From IMG/VR virus record IMGVR_UViG_3300004774_000005, positions 1 to 44,959 of that record: a stretch of 44,959 nucleotides of DNA, one strand, 5' to 3'. The DNA comes from a virus. Shown here piece by piece: positions 892-37,015 of this stretch. Numbering within the stretch: the stretch's first letter is position 1; each line of letters begins with the position of its first letter. The notes under the pieces are model-generated. The model did not search any database. It had not been told where the DNA came from and saw nothing but the letters and a program-made list of their open reading frames with translations. A program made the position numbers and the translations under genes.

Positions 892-3800
892 TTAGGTTGA
901 TTCAAGTGCCGTGATACGGGCGGTCAGGGATGTGATGAGGGCTTGTTGTTCTTGGATTAAAGAAACAAGATTTGCCATTACTTCAGATGAAGATGGCTGG
1001 ATGGATTGGTAAACGGGCTTGCCGTCGGCATCCACAGCGTCTTTTTTGCCTTGACCTGAATGTTTGGCGACCTCCATAAACTCGTGGGCAACAAAGCCTA
1101 CGCCCTCACCAGAGCCGTCCCACCATTGCCATTTTTTAGGCTGCAAGGCCATGACAAACTCTTTAGCGCCTGTCAGAGGTTGTTGGTTGTTCTTCAGGCG
1201 ATAGTCAGAGGTTAGGTTATATAAAACGCCTGTTGTCCCGTTTTGAGTAATAGAGCCAATTTCTGTTCCAGCAAGCATATATTGAGCATACGCATTACCT
1301 CCAGCAGTCCCAGTTGCATGGCCCGTTGCAATTCTTGGACTTCCTGTTGAAGTTGGGCCTAGGATGCATGTTCCTCCAGCAGTTGCTGTAGCCGTTACCG
1401 TGTCAAAGAAAACTTGGGCCGAGTTATTTATAAAAGCCCGTGGATTCCCATCCCCATCAGACAGCACGATGTAGTTGCTTGCTGTGCGGATGTCTAGGCT
1501 ACTTTGGTTGCCGGTGAAACCACCAATAATGGTGTTCTTGGAACCTGTGGTCATTGAGCTTCCGCAACCATTGGTAGAACCAACAACCAAATTTCCAACA
1601 AATGTATTGCCTTGCCCTGTAGAACCAATACCCGCTAACGGCCCTACTATGCAATTCCCACCGTTTGTAGTAATAGCGTCACCAGCCCTATATCCAATCA
1701 GAACATTGTATTGACCAGTAGTATTTGCAGTCCCCGCCTGATATCCTACAGCAGTATTTTGAGCGCCGGTGGTGTTGGAATACAACGCCTGATAACCTAC
1801 AGCAGTGTTGTTTGAGGCTGTGGTATTTGCTCCAAGAGCCTGCATACCTACTGCGGTATTGTTGGATCCTGTGGTGTTGTAGTAAAGAGCGTAAGCCGCT
1901 CCAACGGCTGTATTGTTAGCGCCTGTTGTATTGCTGTATAAAGCCTGAGAGCCAACACCCAACCCTTGAGTAGCAGTAGTGTTGCTATACATCGCCAAAT
2001 AGCCAAGCGCGGTGTTTTGTAATCCCGTGGTATTTGCTTTAAGAGCCGCATAACCAAGAGCAACATTACCATCTCCTGTGGTATTTGCGTAAGCGGCTTG
2101 ATACCCTACAGCAGTGTTGTAGTTTGCTGTGGTGTTGGAAAATAAAGAACCTTCACCTACTGCGGTATTAGCTATACCTGTGCTATTTGTTTTTAATGCT
2201 GTAGCACCAAAAGCACTATTAGAGTATCCGGTGGTGTTTCCATAACCAGCTTGATAACCAACGGCTACAAGATTGCCAGTGGTATTTGTGTATCCCGCCT
2301 GATAACCTATAGCAACGTTGCCTGATGCTGTGGTGTTGGAGACAAGTGCATAAACACCAATACCAACATTAGAAGACCCAGTAGTGTTGGACTTTAAAGC
2401 TCCCGGCCCAAAAGCTGAATTACCTGAACCTGTAGTGTTACTGTATAAAGGGGATTCAATATTTCCGCCCCAATACGATCCCACCGCAGTGTTAGCCGCA
2501 CCAGTAGTATTGCTGTATAAAGCCAGTGAACCAATTGCTACAATACCATTTGCTGTTGTATTACTATACGCAGCTTGATAACCTACGGCGGTGTTTTGAG
2601 ATGCTGTGGTGTTTAAGTAAAGGGCGTAGTAACCCATTGCTGTATTGTTTCCGCCAGTTGTATTTGAGTACAAAGCAACAGAACCAAGTGCCGAGTTGTA
2701 ATTACCAGTTGTGTTTAACCTTAAAGCATAAGAACCAACTGCGGTAATCTGAACGCCAGTTGTGTTGGCGTAACCAGCGGTATAGCCTACAGCAGTGTTT
2801 TCTGATGCTGTGGTGTTGGAGGTTAATGCACCGTTACCTACAGAAGTATTAGAAGAACCTGTAGTATTGGAATTTAACGGGGGAAGTGCTGCGCTACCAT
2901 CATATCCACCTACTGCTACGTTATTAGATCCAGTAGTATTATTTTGTAAAGCGCCATACCCAATAGCAACTAAACCGGCACCTATAGTATTGGTATAAGC
3001 AGCCCGCATACCAACAGCAGTGTTATATGCTGCTGTAGTATTTGAATACAACGCACTTTGACCTACAGCAGTTATTGCTGTACCCGTTGTATTACTGTAA
3101 CTAGCCTGATAACCTACAGCAGTGTTGTTAGCGGCTGTGGTGTTTGCCGCAAGGGCTTGGGAGCCAAGCGCAGTATTTTGAGCGCCAGTGGTATTGGCAT
3201 AACCAGTGGTAAATCCAAGGAAGGTATTATCTGTTCCAGTGGTTGTACCAAAACCAGCCGACTGTCCAATACCTGTATTTTGAGTTCCAGATGTGTTGGC
3301 TTTTAATGAAGAAAAACCATAAGCCGCATTGTTGTTGGCTGTATTGTTTAATAAAGACTGATAGCCTATAGCAGTGTTGTTTGCACCTGTAGTGTTAGCA
3401 CTTAAAGCACTAGTCCCCACCGCAGTATTGGTGGACACAGCACCAGCACCACGGCCCACGGTGAGGCCATACACAGTCAGGTCAGTACCGCTGTACAAAA
3501 GGTTGGCAGAGTCAGTCTCAAGGCCACCAGTGGTGGAGTACACCACACGGCCCGATGTCAGGCCGGTGTTGGTGATGGAGCTAAATGTTCCTGCGCCGCC
3601 CGGTGTGTTGGATAGCTTGGCATAGTCAGAGCCGTTCCAAAATATTTGGGCCTTCTCGCCGTTGACCATCGTTACGCCGCTGGTAGCAGAGCCTTTAACC
3701 GTCAGGGCAAACCCACCAGTGGTATTGTTGTTGATGACGTACTGACGGCTGCTGCTAGGCAGGATCAAGTTACGCGCTGCGGTCATTGCCCCGCTTACGT

Positions 3801-4029
3801 TCAGGATGGCGTACTGCGCCGTGGTCGAGCCGATGTTAGTTGCCGAGCTTGTACCCTGTGTGAGCGTGAGCGTAACGTCTGTCGTGGTGATAGAGACCGA
3901 CAAGCCGCCAGCAATGGCAATGTCCAAGTAAGACGTAACGCTGTTGTTTACGTCATCGCCCCATGTACCGGATTCTGTGCCGGTTACCGGCTGTCCGAGG
4001 GCTAGATTGGTTGTGTAATTGACCGTCAT
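892..4029 (-). CDS. Tail fibre/spike with C-terminal S74 intramolecular chaperone
   Basis: This 1045-residue protein has three parts. Residues 1-190 are an N-terminal attachment-like region. From about 190 to 850 there are some forty copies of a 17-residue repeat of the form NTTGxxNTAVGYQALYS, with a few irregular inserts. The C-terminus from S941 (SDYRLKNNQQ) is a peptidase S74 intramolecular chaperone domain ending in a coiled coil. In that family the C-terminal domain trimerises the fibre and then cuts itself off before the conserved Ser. The repeats suggest a left-handed or triple beta-helical shaft. The start has AGGAGTTATAAATG. The product is most likely the receptor-binding fibre at the tail tip. 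Confidence 0.92.
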   Translation of the reverse strand: MTVNYTTNLALGQPVTGTESGTWGDDVNNSVTSYLDIAIAGGLSVSITTTDVTLTLTQGTSSATNIGSTTAQYAILNVSGAMTAARNLILPSSSRQYVINNNTTGGFALTVKGSATSGVTMVNGEKAQIFWNGSDYAKLSNTPGGAGTFSSITNTGLTSGRVVYSTTGGLETDSANLLYSGTDLTVYGLTVGRGAGAVSTNTAVGTSALSANTTGANNTAIGYQSLLNNTANNNAAYGFSSLKANTSGTQNTGIGQSAGFGTTTGTDNTFLGFTTGYANTTGAQNTALGSQALAANTTAANNTAVGYQASYSNTTGTAITAVGQSALYSNTTAAYNTAVGMRAAYTNTIGAGLVAIGYGALQNNTTGSNNVAVGGYDGSAALPPLNSNTTGSSNTSVGNGALTSNTTASENTAVGYTAGYANTTGVQITAVGSYALRLNTTGNYNSALGSVALYSNTTGGNNTAMGYYALYLNTTASQNTAVGYQAAYSNTTANGIVAIGSLALYSNTTGAANTAVGSYWGGNIESPLYSNTTGSGNSAFGPGALKSNTTGSSNVGIGVYALVSNTTASGNVAIGYQAGYTNTTGNLVAVGYQAGYGNTTGYSNSAFGATALKTNSTGIANTAVGEGSLFSNTTANYNTAVGYQAAYANTTGDGNVALGYAALKANTTGLQNTALGYLAMYSNTTATQGLGVGSQALYSNTTGANNTAVGAAYALYYNTTGSNNTAVGMQALGANTTASNNTAVGYQALYSNTTGAQNTAVGYQAGTANTTGQYNVLIGYRAGDAITTNGGNCIVGPLAGIGSTGQGNTFVGNLVVGSTNGCGSSMTTGSKNTIIGGFTGNQSSLDIRTASNYIVLSDGDGNPRAFINNSAQVFFDTVTATATAGGTCILGPTSTGSPRIATGHATGTAGGNAYAQYMLAGTEIGSITQNGTTGVLYNLTSDYRLKNNQQPLTGAKEFVMALQPKKWQWWDGSGEGVGFVAHEFMEVAKHSGQGKKDAVDADGKPVYQSIQPSSSEVMANLVSLIQEQQALITSLTARITALEST
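1480..3460 (-). repeat. About forty 51-bp in-frame repeats in the tail-fibre gene
   Basis: The DNA of the fibre shaft is a degenerate direct repeat of about 51 bp (17 codons) centred on AATACCACAGG/AACACTGCGGTAGG-type blocks on the minus strand. The repeats are diverged at synonymous sites but keep the N-T-T and A-V-G residues, so selection has kept the protein pattern. The block is coding and is not a CRISPR array, because there are no unique spacers. Recombination between units would change fibre length in 17-residue steps. Confidence 0.85.
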
Positions 4030-33069: not shown

Positions 33070-33338
33070 ACAACGAACAAGTAATGCAGCTACTGGCTGA
33101 CAACGGACTGCATGAAGGCGGCATGGACAACTGGGTTCTTGATAACGCTTGGGTGCAGTTTGCTAACTTGGTAGAAGCAAAAGCCCGTGCCGATGAGCGT
33201 GAGGCGTGTGCAAAGGCGTGTGAGAGCCATGTATGGAGCAAGGATACTACATGGTGGCTTGAAAGTACCAAATCAGAAGTAGGTGCAGAATCAGGAATTC
33301 AATGCGCCGCCGCCATTCGCGCAAGGGGAACAACATGA
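33066..33338 (+). CDS. Small hypothetical protein with 'EREACAKAC' motif
   Basis: This 90-residue protein begins MNNEQVMQLLADNGLHEGGM and contains VEAKARADEREACAKACESH and a C-terminal GIQCAAAIRARGTT. It shares the 'EREACAK.C ... AIR.RG' motif with the gene at 32465-32755, and the Cys spacing suggests a common ancestor. ATGA overlaps exist on both sides. Function is unknown. Confidence 0.7.
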   Translation: MNNEQVMQLLADNGLHEGGMDNWVLDNAWVQFANLVEAKARADEREACAKACESHVWSKDTTWWLESTKSEVGAESGIQCAAAIRARGTT

Positions 33339-33577
33339 CAGGCTATCAAAGCAAAAAGGCAGCGGCGCTGGACGAGGAAGGGATGTACCTTGTGCATCAC
33401 ACTAAGCGCAAAGTAGATGACGATGATGACATCCAAGTCTATAAGCGCCCGTGGGTAAGCCTGACGGATGAGGAAATAAAAGAAATCGTTGGGCCGTGGG
33501 GCGACACGCCTATCAAAGGCTACACCCGCAAACTGTTTGACCAAATTGAATCCAAACTAAAGGAGAAGAACACATGA
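33335..33577 (+). CDS. Small protein with 'RPWVxLTD' module (first copy)
   Basis: The start at 33335 gives 80 residues, MTGYQSKKAAALDEEGMYLV. A C-terminal module has KRPWVSLTDEEIKEIVGPWG and ends FDQIESKLKEKNT. The same RPWVxLTD module recurs in the genes at 33574 and 34063. The last codons (AAGGAGAAGAACACATG) are at the same time the ribosome-binding site of the next gene. Function is unknown. Confidence 0.65.
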   Translation: MTGYQSKKAAALDEEGMYLVHHTKRKVDDDDDIQVYKRPWVSLTDEEIKEIVGPWGDTPIKGYTRKLFDQIESKLKEKNT

Positions 33578-33801
33578 ACTCACAAGAAAAAACATTTGAT
33601 GCCATTGCCAAACTAAAAGACATTGAGCTTGAATTGCTCCGCTTGAGGAATGCTTTGGATATGACAAACAAAATAATAGACGCGCAGACGCGCCCGTGGG
33701 TAGGGCTGACGGATGGGGATGAGATTGATTGGGATGGTGGCGATTTAAAGTCACTTATTGCCTCAGTTGAAGCCAAACTAAAGGAGAAGAACAATGGATG
33801 A
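33574..33801 (+). CDS. Small protein with 'RPWVxLTD' module (second copy)
   Basis: This 75-residue protein begins MNSQEKTFDAIAKLKDIELE, a helical coil, then TRPWVGLTDGDEIDWDGGDL and a tail LIASVEAKLKEKNNG. It shares the RPWVxLTD module and the KLKEKN tail with the gene at 33335. The tail codes for AAGGAGAAGAACAATG, the start site of the next gene. Function is unknown. Confidence 0.65.
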   Translation: MNSQEKTFDAIAKLKDIELELLRLRNALDMTNKIIDAQTRPWVGLTDGDEIDWDGGDLKSLIASVEAKLKEKNNG

Positions 33802-34066
33802 AGACAAATACGATCAGCTTGGCGCTCGTTACGTTAAAGCGTTGGGGGAGTCTATGAAACGAACACAGGACGATGAGGTCAACAGCATAAAGAGAGTCCA
33901 ACTACACCTTGACGCTTCGGCTTATGCAAACAAGCGTATAGCAATGCACAAGGAAGCGATCAAGCAACAAAAGCAAACGCCGCTGGACGATAAGGTACAC
34001 AACGGCACATGGATAGCGCACTACGAAGGCTATGTAGCGGGATACGAAGCAAAGGAAAAGAAATGA
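33794..34066 (+). CDS. Small helical protein
   Basis: This 90-residue protein begins MDEDKYDQLGARYVKALGES and has LDASAYANKRIAMHKEAIKQ and a C-terminus WIAHYEGYVAGYEAKEKK. It overlaps the previous gene by 8 bases and the next by 4. Helical and charged, no domain recognised. Function is unknown. Confidence 0.65.
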   Translation: MDEDKYDQLGARYVKALGESMKRTQDDEVNSIKRVQLHLDASAYANKRIAMHKEAIKQQKQTPLDDKVHNGTWIAHYEGYVAGYEAKEKK

Positions 34067-34308
34067 CTATCGCATGGTACGACCCCACTAACCACCACGT
34101 TAGCACGGACAAGAACGACCCCATGTTCACGCCGCTTGGGCAGTTAAAACCTTTGGAAGAAAAGCGCCCGTGGGTTGACCTGACAGACAGTCAGATTGAA
34201 CAGGTCTACTACGATATTGTAAAGATTCACCGTGGTGCGCCTATGCCGTGGGGACAAATTAATTTTGGCAAAACACTGCAAGCCCTTATTAAGGAGAAAA
34301 ACACATGA
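34063..34308 (+). CDS. Small protein with 'RPWVxLTD' module (third copy)
   Basis: The start at 34063 gives 81 residues, MTIAWYDPTNHHVSTDKNDP. It contains PLEEKRPWVDLTDSQIEQVY and a tail FGKTLQALIKEKNT. This is the third copy of the RPWVxLTD module within 0.7 kb, here with a different N-terminal half. The tail again doubles as the ribosome-binding site of the next gene (AAGGAGAAAAACACATG). Function is unknown. Confidence 0.65.
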   Translation: MTIAWYDPTNHHVSTDKNDPMFTPLGQLKPLEEKRPWVDLTDSQIEQVYYDIVKIHRGAPMPWGQINFGKTLQALIKEKNT

Positions 34309-34502
34309 AAGTAACAATCCAACTTGAAGAAAAAGCTGAAGTGCTTGATGCAATTCACGCCGATGAAGCGTGGTTAGCGCTCAGAGAAATACAGCGCTTG
34401 CTACGTATAAACGAAAAGCATGATGTTGGCGATGCAGTCACGCTACAGCGTATCTCAACTGAGATAATTGATGTTTTTAGTGCTAGAGGTGACAATGTAT
34501 AA
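34305..34502 (+). CDS. Small helical hypothetical protein
   Basis: This 65-residue protein begins MKVTIQLEEKAEVLDAIHAD and ends with AVTLQRISTEIIDVFSARGD followed by NV. It reads as a beta strand followed by helices. It overlaps the previous gene by 4 bases and the next by 8. I recall no named family; it is probably a cytoplasmic accessory protein. Confidence 0.65.
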   Translation: MKVTIQLEEKAEVLDAIHADEAWLALREIQRLLRINEKHDVGDAVTLQRISTEIIDVFSARGDNV

Positions 34503-34740
34503 GTCCAACCACCACGCCATAAGGATGGCTCTACAAAAGTATCCTGATGGGTTGACCGCAGCTGAGATAGCTGAACGCACTGAAAAAGACCGGACCGCGA
34601 TCAATCGTTCTTTATCAGTAATGCCCGATACATACATAGACCGATGGGTTTCCTTTAGGGAACATAAAGGTCAATGGACCGCTATATGGTGCGTAGTAGT
34701 ACCCCCCGAGAATTGCCCTAAACCCACGGAGAAACCATAA
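34495..34740 (+). CDS. Winged-helix DNA-binding protein
   Basis: The start at 34495 has GAGGTGACAATG and gives 81 residues, MYKSNHHAIRMALQKYPDGL. Residues 5-45 form a winged-helix motif: IRMALQKYPDGLTAAEIAER and TEKDRTAINRSLSVMPDTYI, followed by wing strands DRWVSFREHKGQWTAIWCVV. This is the layout of small transcriptional regulators and replication initiators. It is the only clear DNA-binding protein in the small-gene operon and a candidate for the factor that acts on the repeated promoter boxes of the accessory cluster. Confidence 0.75.
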   Translation: MYKSNHHAIRMALQKYPDGLTAAEIAERTEKDRTAINRSLSVMPDTYIDRWVSFREHKGQWTAIWCVVVPPENCPKPTEKP

Positions 34741-34741
34741 A

Positions 34742-34930
34742 ATGATATTGACCTTTGATAACGTAATCGCAGTGCTGGATGACTTGGCTAAGGCCTACCG
34801 CCAGACCAACGGCCTTGACGGGGCCCACGATAAAGCGCTGGTAACGGCTGAAGCGGTGATCAATAAATTCCGCGACATCCAAGCACAACAGGCAAAATAC
34901 ATGCAGCAGCCTGATCCAACAGCGAAGTAG
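34742..34930 (+). CDS. Last small gene of the rightward operon
   Basis: This 62-residue protein begins MILTFDNVIAVLDDLAKAYR and continues QTNGLDGAHDKALVTAEAVI and KFRDIQAQQAKYMQQPD. It is helical and uncharacterised. It starts one base after the previous stop, with GGAGAAACCATAAAATG as ribosome-binding site. It is followed directly by the structured stretch at 34945-35149. Confidence 0.65.
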   Translation: MILTFDNVIAVLDDLAKAYRQTNGLDGAHDKALVTAEAVINKFRDIQAQQAKYMQQPDPTAK

Positions 34931-34944
34931 AATACCGCCGACTC

Positions 34945-35149
34945 ACCCCCGTAAGGGGTGGCCATCACGCATGGGGATTGGTCTTATCGGGAAAGCTGCC
35001 GGTGACCAGCAGACACATCGTCTGACAAACCAGTCCCCAGCCGTGTTGGTGTAGTTCAGCTAATTCACCTTAAGGTGGGCCGAGGCATCGGTGGGAAGAA
35101 CAGGCCCATGCAGGGTTACGCGCTGGGTTCGAAGCCAGCCACCAACAAC
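34945..35149 (+). ncRNA. Candidate structured RNA at a convergent junction
   Basis: No gene fits here. Reading right there is CACCCC-N5-GGGGTG (near 34946-34962), a long stem GGGGATTGGT / ACCAGTCCCC enclosing CAGAC-N5-GTCTG and a GCTG...CAGC stem, then a second domain closed by GTTGGTG (35045-35051) and CACCAAC (35140-35146). Inside it are GGGCC/GGCCC and, abutting the closing stem, GCTGG-GTTCGAAG-CCAGC. The T-arm-like hairpin and 7-bp closing stem recall a tRNA, but no anticodon arm fits. The strand is inferred from the end of the rightward operon. Confidence 0.5.
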
Positions 35150-37015
35150 CTACTTTGCTGATCCCCAAGTCGGACCGACTTCCACATCGCACCGGCTTGG
35201 GACTTCCAGCTTCACTGCTTCCATCATGATCTGCGCAGCGGCCTGCGCCTCTTCCCTGCTCTTAACGGACAATGCAAGCTCATCATGCACTTGCAGCATG
35301 CTCCTGATCCCCGCTTTGTGCAGCGCCACCATGGCGGACTTGACCTGATCCGCAGCCGACCCCTGTATCAACCTGTTGAGACCCTTGTAAGTCCCGCTGC
35401 GCTTGATCCGTTGCCCGTATTCCATGACTGCCTGCTCTCGCGGCAGCGCCTTGTTCACACCCCATTCCATTGGTTCCCACAAAGGGAACCTACACTTGCG
35501 GCCCAGCAGCGTGCGGATGCTCCCGTTGGACGTGGGGCTATCTATGCGCTTCATGACCGCATTGACCGTGCCCTTAAGGAACGGCACATTGTGGTGAAAC
35601 TTGGTGATCAATTCATCAGCCTCGCTGATGTGCAAGTCCAACTGGTTGGCCAGCTTGCCCTTGCCCATACCGTACATCAACCCTAAGCCAATTGTCTTGG
35701 CAGACTTGCGGCCAATTCCCGCCATGTCGGCCACCATCTGGTGAAAGTCAGTGTTAGGGTTTTCCCTATAGGCGTTTACCATTACATCGGCCCCGGGCAA
35801 ATCCAAGAGGCTTGCATAGTGGACCAGCAGTCTAGGTTCTTGAGAACTAAAGTCATTCGATGCCCAAAGCTCCCCCTCTTCCGGCAGGAACAAGTTACGC
35901 ACCATAGGGCCAATGATTTCGTGGCGGGCGGGTACTTGCTGGAGGTTGGGGTTGGCCATGGACAGCCGTCCTGTAACCGTGCCCCCATCATCACTGCGCA
36001 TCTGATTGACGTGCGGGTGGATGCGGCCTGTCTTGGCGCTGAACTCAAGGTAGGGCTGTAGGAACGTGCTATGGGTCTTGTTGGTCTCACGGGCTTCCAC
36101 AATCATCTTGGCAACAGGGTGACTGCATGACTCCAAGAAGCTCTTGGTAAAGCTCGGCGCACCGGCCTCGGTCTTGGCGTAGGGGAGCCCCAGCTTGTCA
36201 AAGGCGGAGGCAATGCTTTGTGGAGTCCAGATATCCACAGAGTTACCCACAAGGTTGCGCATGTGCGTATAAAGCTCCTTCTCCCGCTTTTTGAGCTTAT
36301 CCATCAGCATCTCACAGTTATGTCTGTCAAAGCGGATGCCACGACGAGTCATATCCAGCAGCACAGGGAACACAGCAGTTTCTAAGTCAAAAATAGATTC
36401 GACTTCTTCTTGTCTCATCTTTATCTTTAGTGCTTGCCAAAGTTTTAAAGTTAAGGCAGCATCTTGCTCGGCGTAGTCGCCCACATACATGGCGGGCAGC
36501 TTCCACAGCTCCTTCTTTGGATGCACACCAAAGTCGGCTGCGGCCATCTTCAATCCGGTTTCCGACTTGGTCTCTTGTAGGTAGTCGTAGCCAAGGGAGT
36601 TGAGGGAGAAACTGAAGCGATTTTCGTCAATGAGTGGCGCTGCAAGCATCGTGTCCACGATACGGCCATTGATGGTAAATCCGCTGGCGTAAAGCCACCC
36701 TGTGTCATAGGCTGCGTTATGCATGACCTTTGTTGCGGAGGTGGAGAGGATTTCTTGTATCCAGCGATCAACTCGGGATTTGTCAAGGTTACCACCGCCT
36801 TGATGGGCAATAGGGTAATAGCCGGACCATCCGTCCACAGCAACAGCGTAACCAACAATAAAACCATCGTTTCTGGGCCAGCCCGGTCCAAAAGATTCCA
36901 TATTTGGGTCACAGGTTTCGAGGTCAATTGCAATCTCCTTGGCGGTGGATAAGTTGGGAAATGTGTCTGGGGCAACCCACTCGCAAGGGGTGGGAAATAA
37001 TGGCATGGTCTTCAT
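35150..37015 (-). CDS. PolA-family DNA polymerase with 3'-5' exonuclease
   Basis: This 621-residue protein has an exonuclease domain (AIDLETCD with D31/E33, HNAAYD near 99-104, YAEQDAAL near 181-188) and a family A polymerase domain. Motif A is SNDFSSQEPRLL (D388), motif B is RKSAKTIGLGLMYG (436-449) and motif C is QVHDELAL (H577-D578-E579). The residue matching E. coli Phe762 is Leu444. It lacks a 5'-nuclease domain, as usual for phage replicases. The start overlaps the stop of the helicase gene (ATGA) and has AAGGATTCAAGATATG. It is the last gene of the replication operon. Confidence 0.93.
   Translation of the reverse strand: MKTMPLFPTPCEWVAPDTFPNLSTAKEIAIDLETCDPNMESFGPGWPRNDGFIVGYAVAVDGWSGYYPIAHQGGGNLDKSRVDRWIQEILSTSATKVMHNAAYDTGWLYASGFTINGRIVDTMLAAPLIDENRFSFSLNSLGYDYLQETKSETGLKMAAADFGVHPKKELWKLPAMYVGDYAEQDAALTLKLWQALKIKMRQEEVESIFDLETAVFPVLLDMTRRGIRFDRHNCEMLMDKLKKREKELYTHMRNLVGNSVDIWTPQSIASAFDKLGLPYAKTEAGAPSFTKSFLESCSHPVAKMIVEARETNKTHSTFLQPYLEFSAKTGRIHPHVNQMRSDDGGTVTGRLSMANPNLQQVPARHEIIGPMVRNLFLPEEGELWASNDFSSQEPRLLVHYASLLDLPGADVMVNAYRENPNTDFHQMVADMAGIGRKSAKTIGLGLMYGMGKGKLANQLDLHISEADELITKFHHNVPFLKGTVNAVMKRIDSPTSNGSIRTLLGRKCRFPLWEPMEWGVNKALPREQAVMEYGQRIKRSGTYKGLNRLIQGSAADQVKSAMVALHKAGIRSMLQVHDELALSVKSREEAQAAAQIMMEAVKLEVPSRCDVEVGPTWGSAK

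Follow-up and report, generated by a model that had tools for sequence, protein, structure and literature searches.

The window that we analysed is a viral record of 44,959 bp (IMG/VR IMGVR_UViG_3300004774_000005), in which an intergenic gap of 219 bp (positions 34931–35149) separates the end of an open reading frame (ORF) on the + strand (34930) from the gene for DNA polymerase A, which is read from the − strand and has its stop codon at 35150. A run of small + strand ORFs lies to the left of the gap and the polymerase gene to its right, as expected from an earlier note that had described convergent operons here. The note had listed several stems in the gap, and those of sequence CACCCC/GGGGTG, GGGGATTGGT/ACCAGTCCCC and CAGAC/GTCTG are indeed present, as are a T-arm-like GCTGG-GTTCGAAG-CCAGC and a closing pair GTTGGTG/CACCAAC that also pairs in homologues. 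The first of them, a small hairpin CACCCC-CGTAA-GGGGTG (34945–34961, + strand), stands directly 3′ of the + strand operon, and the sister phage L002 has it too (L-numbers, here and below, are labels of the viral contigs compared with the window).

ARAGORN and Rfam 15 gave no match anywhere in the window. When 34850–35250 was searched permissively with Rfam (E up to 10), the tRNA-like domain fell into no class, no tRNA was matched, and the single weak hit, a chance one, lay beyond the gap. No sigma-70-like promoter was found beside the array in the window. The single-sequence folding energy of the gap RNA modestly beats that of shuffled sequences; because the z-score is only about −2, energy alone would not settle the structure, and the comparative evidence described below was decisive.

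A conserved tRNA-like RNA beside the polymerase gene

The 102 nt at 35045–35146 (+ strand), termed unit B or TLS here, almost certainly constitute a real, conserved structured RNA. Pattern scans of IMG/VR, together with a stem-aware descriptor, recovered homologues from L124, L125–L128/L130, L136, L200, L220, L228/L476, L238, L239, L477 and L478, as well as near-identical copies from L104 and L118 (IMGVR_UViG_3300004805_000007, 59.9 kb); the homologues fall into about ten distinct viral contig groups. In nine distinct sequences of the unit every pair cell is formed (279/279, 100%), and two-sided changes occur at four pairs in four different helices: U-A to A-U in the acceptor, U-A to C-G in the D-stem, C-G/U-A in D-loop hairpin 1 and C-G/G-C in the anticodon stem. 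The covariation score was reached by none of 500 shuffles, and structures that are slid out of place fail. A covariance model gave the window 125 bits; among 80 polymerase-related loci the runner-up, with 20 bits, was a tRNA-like match of the ordinary kind.

All elements of the unit lie on the + strand. The 5′ strand of an acceptor-like stem (35045–35051) pairs with 35140–35146 and carries the compensatory U-A to A-U change in L125, where the D-stem, formed in the window by GUUC (35054–35057) and GAAC (35098–35101), reads GCUC/GAGC. The D-loop of an ordinary tRNA has 7–11 nt, whereas that of unit B is expanded to 40 nt (35058–35097) and holds two hairpins, one that covaries (35065–35069/35074–35078) and one that is invariant and carries a GGCA loop (35079–35083/35088–35092); in some homologues the GGCA loop is found in the anticodon arm as well. 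The "anticodon" arm (35103–35117) has a covarying 5-bp stem and, across homologues, a loop of 4–6 nt, never of 7 nt. The T-arm GCUGG-GUUCGAAG-CCAGC (35122–35139) can be drawn either with an 8-nt loop or, if one G is bulged out, with a G-C pair closing a canonical UUCGARG loop. The acceptor 3′ strand (CACCAAC) and the A/ACC after it span 35140–35152 and end in contact with the polymerase stop codon on the opposite strand; in many B units, AACCTA or a similar sequence comes next after the closing strand. One stem of the earlier note, GGGCC (35077–35081) with GGCCC (35103–35107), is not kept in homologues; instead, GGCCC pairs with GGGTT (35113–35117), covarying, and GCCGA (35079–35083) pairs with TCGGT (35088–35092).

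Unit B thus shares with tRNA (RF00005) a 7-bp acceptor-like stem, U8, A9, a D-stem (GYUC/GARC), A14, G15, A21 (just 5′ of the D-stem 3′ strand), A26, C48 (5′ of the T-stem) and a T-arm with UUCGA in its loop. It encodes no CCA, as is true of many phage tRNAs. It differs from tRNA in its enlarged D-loop, in an extra G in the T-arm and in an anticodon arm so stunted that it leaves no room for an anticodon loop, such that unit B cannot decode; neither ARAGORN nor the Rfam tRNA model recognises it. The earlier note was therefore right about the length of about 102 nt, the lack of a fitting anticodon arm and of an encoded CCA, and its proposal that the gap holds a new structured RNA whose second domain is tRNA-like is borne out by a conserved RNA that keeps tRNA tertiary nucleotides and that Rfam and ARAGORN assign to no class. 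tmRNA also has a tRNA-like domain without an anticodon, but the D-stem of unit B is intact, its 102 nt could not accommodate a tag frame together with pseudoknots, and the window gave no tmRNA match with Rfam or ARAGORN.

Paired connectors and the exchange of units

Upstream of unit B homologues the ends of the sequence are conserved and the interiors unrelated. This region of the window is unit A (34962–35049, + strand), a hairpin of the layout CCAACACGCATGGGGATTG – variable interior – CAGTCCCCAGCCGTGTTGG with a strongly covarying stem. Its 5′ strand is connector R2, CCATCACGCATGGGGATTG (34962–34980); the interior, or payload (34981–35030), contains the hairpin CAGAC/GTCTG and is identical in the unrelated contig L588; and its 3′ strand is connector R1, CAGTCCCCAGCCGTGTTGG (35031–35049), whose GTTGG also begins the tRNA-like unit. 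The inner helix joins 34972–34980 with 35031–35039 and the outer helix 34966–34969 with 35042–35045, the two being separated by a tandem mismatch (C34970·C35041 and A34971·G35040). When complementarity was not required, a partner connector was found upstream in 132 of 140 distinct R1 copies. Among these 132 R1/R2 pairs, the inner helix has at its third pair G-C in 99, A-U in 26, G·U in 5 and A·C in 2, and at its fourth pair G-C in 97, G·U in 21, A-U in 13 and A·C in 1. That G·U is far commoner than A·C indicates that the folding strand is the one co-oriented with tRNAs. The outer helix of A and the acceptor of B share GTTGG, and adjacent units may therefore compete for it.

Units A and B are separable, B occurring without the A hairpin in L104 and L125. 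The view of the gap as one RNA with two domains consequently stands in part only: both parts are structured, but they are separate, exchangeable units of an array. In particular, the window and L588 share unit A at 87 of 87 positions (100%) and nothing else, L588 being short and "unrelated" referring to the compared sequence. L228 and L581 share 77 bp at 100%, L200 and L563 share 83 bp at 98.8%, and L002 and L495 share 99 bp at 98%, while the window has only the connector and the tRNA-like unit in common with L124 and L136, bar a few short repeats. Over all arrays, 342 pairs of segments have only an isolated stretch in common, with a median length of 78 nt; 74% of these stretches begin within 10 nt of a connector, compared with 7.7% at random. 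Units are thus very probably exchanged as cassettes between unrelated phages, in swaps that end in the conserved connectors.

Arrays, payloads and carriers

Arrays that alternate A-B-A-B, with each B unit running from GTTGGTG to CACCAAC, are found in L124, L136, L220, L485, L495 and L544. A scan for the second connector found at least 119 contigs, and at least 159 arrays were counted on 131 viral contigs. The A heads form about 73 clusters, a count taken from a set chosen, and so biased, for connector complementarity (the stem covariation was recomputed without that condition), and the B units about 41. These modular RNA arrays of phages could be matched to no described class and seem not to have been recognised before; a literature search returned no account of them, although some may already appear, without a name, in older large-scale compilations of candidate phage RNAs.

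The payloads are structured RNAs of about 60–140 nt. One B family consists of two hairpins whose loops pair (GCUGA/UCAGC, ACUGA/UCAGU) around a variable middle; both-sided changes occur in 7 of its 23 pairs, which was matched by no shuffle. In another payload family UUAGC goes with UGCU (14 cases) and UUGGC with UGCC (4 cases), and mixtures never occur. Canonical T-arms are present in 7 of 123 A heads (0.04 in shuffles) and in 5 of 112 B units (0.1 in shuffles). Further tRNA-like B units, with an altered D-loop or anticodon arm, lie in L575, L328, L276/L313 and L549, and Rfam calls that of L276 a tRNA despite its 104-nt span. The units of L575 and L328 represent an independent design, with an enlarged D-loop that holds a GGCA hairpin and a GGCA tip on the anticodon arm; the predicted fold supports this design for L575 only. 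Matches of Rfam 15 models to the arrays were limited to tRNA, abiF and a weak int-alpA; the last is a sub-threshold int-alpA RNA (31.9 bits, cut-off 35.8) at L550:2677–2753, a few hundred bases 3′ of an array. A distinct phage family of tRNA-like RNAs of about 98 nt, with normal D- and T-arms and an enlarged anticodon region bearing a motif like UUCAUGGUGAAGGACC, was seen in L275, L305, L320, L332, L338, L345 and L351.

The carriers are varied tailed phages. A homologous ORF of any kind is shared by 1,020 of 8,385 contig pairs, and the widely shared proteins are general phage proteins only (terminase-like and others). Unit B is found 3′ of DNA polymerase A, upstream of TerS/TerL or upstream of primase, and these differing gene contexts argue against a cis leader. 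That the RNA serves a single gene in cis, as leader or terminator, was accordingly rejected, the only terminator-like site in 34400–35300 lying elsewhere, on the opposite strand. Many arrays begin directly 3′ of terminator-like hairpins or tRNA ends, phage tRNAs are often their neighbours, and several carriers have tRNA-Met genes. In the related phages L016, L029, L037 and L045, genes for tRNAs or tRNA-like RNAs occupy the slot 3′ of DNA polymerase A, which looks like a hotspot for small-RNA genes; in sister phages, too, this slot is taken by tRNAs or by other RNAs.

Connector R1 was absent from all 768 Burkholderiales and Gammaproteobacteria genomes searched, groups that may not be those of the host, which argues weakly against a host origin of the units. 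A loose-pattern scan of genome contigs showed no tRNA-like design among the matches listed, blastn of the window gap against isolate phages returned nothing real, and plasmids gave short chance matches only.

Counter-defence and other readings

Taken together, these observations lead us to favour, tentatively and somewhat short of an even chance, the reading that the gap holds two units of a phage modular RNA array whose payloads each act in trans as a decoy or RNA-antitoxin mimic against a host RNA-targeting defence or toxin. With its acceptor/T stack, D-stem and elbow nucleotides, unit B could be bound by tRNA-binding proteins without decoding, and the shape of such non-decoding tRNA mimics suggests that they may be decoys for tRNA-binding nucleases. 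Antitoxin mimics such as abiF RNA would neutralise toxins. The units would be transcribed from the upstream operon and then processed, and by exchange the phages would assemble a changeable set of payloads.

The strongest hint comes from one array. In L552 an abiF RNA with a T-run (1269–1305; 55.2 bits, cut-off 37) begins directly where the array stops; no abiF gene was seen among the ORFs of this 4-kb contig, and the case is the only one among 77 array loci scanned with Rfam. abiF RNA is known to neutralise the AbiF toxin (PMC12373285), and there is precedent for a phage escaping a type III system by means of a ToxI-mimic RNA (PMC3475682). The window units resemble abiF RNA (RF03085) and type III antitoxins such as ToxI in being structured RNAs; they match neither family and have no toxin gene alongside, and the abiF model was matched solely by the separate element in L552. 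Beyond the tRNA-like payloads and that adjacent abiF RNA, no payload could be matched to a known defence target. The lack of a promoter beside the array in the window and the many array starts 3′ of terminator-like hairpins or tRNA ends also count against this reading. Function could instead reside in the connectors, with the payloads as mere spacers; the conservation and covariation of the payloads speak against this. An anti-defence function of the arrays is a plausible if doubtful proposal, and it is more speculative that the phages share a recombining library of RNA cassettes, each neutralising a different host RNA-targeting defence or toxin, as a changeable counter-defence arsenal.

The main rival is that the units are processing or stability elements whose cleavage by RNase P, E or III of the host separates and protects co-transcribed phage tRNAs and mRNAs, with payload sequence of minor importance. 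Arrays can abut tRNA genes: in MW202484.1 (a metagenome-assembled complete genome in GenBank) an A unit follows tRNA-Asn, the CCA of which opens the connector, and a tRNA-Met lies directly 3′ of the tRNA-like unit in L200. A tRNA-like shape would, moreover, attract RNase P and Z, and the ORF nearest downstream of an array usually shares its strand (108 versus 38). However, many arrays have no tRNA nearby, and the payload families are of dozens of kinds, conserved in detail and with covarying loop contacts, leaving processing an unlikely account overall. An integron-like or other single-strand DNA cassette system, in which the A hairpin would be an attC-like site and the B units its cassettes, ranks lower and is improbable. 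Like attC in outline, unit A has an outer helix (CCAAC/GTTGG), a spacer that is left unpaired, an inner helix and a tip that varies; the units, like integron cassettes, are swapped as wholes at paired ends. The R boxes of attC read RYYYAAC and GTTRRRY, a consensus that GTTGGTG/CACCAAC does not fit; the ORFs shared most widely included no conspicuous integrase; and the payloads are structured RNAs, their inner covariation and the one-strand G·U pairs suggesting folding as RNA.

The two remaining rivals concern the tRNA likeness itself. That unit B is a captured phage tRNA, decaying after an insertion into its D-loop, would suit the tRNA genes that polymerase-related phages carry in the same slot. 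Against it stand the compensatory changes and invariant elbow nucleotides across several unrelated phages, and a second class of the same design (L575 and L328); we consider it very improbable, and of the three options in the earlier note the tRNA mimic fits best and the tRNA remnant with an insert poorly. A remnant of attP/tRNA integration was set aside, since the conserved stretch is a whole RNA with compensatory changes, not a 3′ tRNA half. Least probable of all is membership of the bacterial Y RNA class. YrlA combines a Ro-binding stem with a tRNA-like module, a plan similar to that of the gap, but the phage domains are separable units in arrays of many payloads, unit B can stand without the A hairpin, no Rfam match was found for the gap (E up to 10), and a TROVE/Ro protein was seen in none of 11 carrier records (possibly fragments), the control genome being positive.

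If expressed, the arrays would be a common, unrecognised phage RNA element that sets dozens of structured RNA families, among them several independent designs of non-decoding tRNA mimic, in one exchangeable frame. They would then be a rich source of candidates in work on RNA-based counter-defence and on tRNA mimicry, and the exchange of noncoding RNA modules could be studied in them as it occurs in nature.

Two further features of the window lie outside the gap. At 33302–34308, and also in L136 and L534, neighbouring small ORFs encode proteins with a shared motif, PW(V/Q).LTD, and the DNA of these ORFs recurs inside the window and across phages. At 892–4029, a large − strand protein has many repeats of the NTTA..NTAVGY type and a C-terminal part that, by eye only, resembles a tail-fibre chaperone domain.
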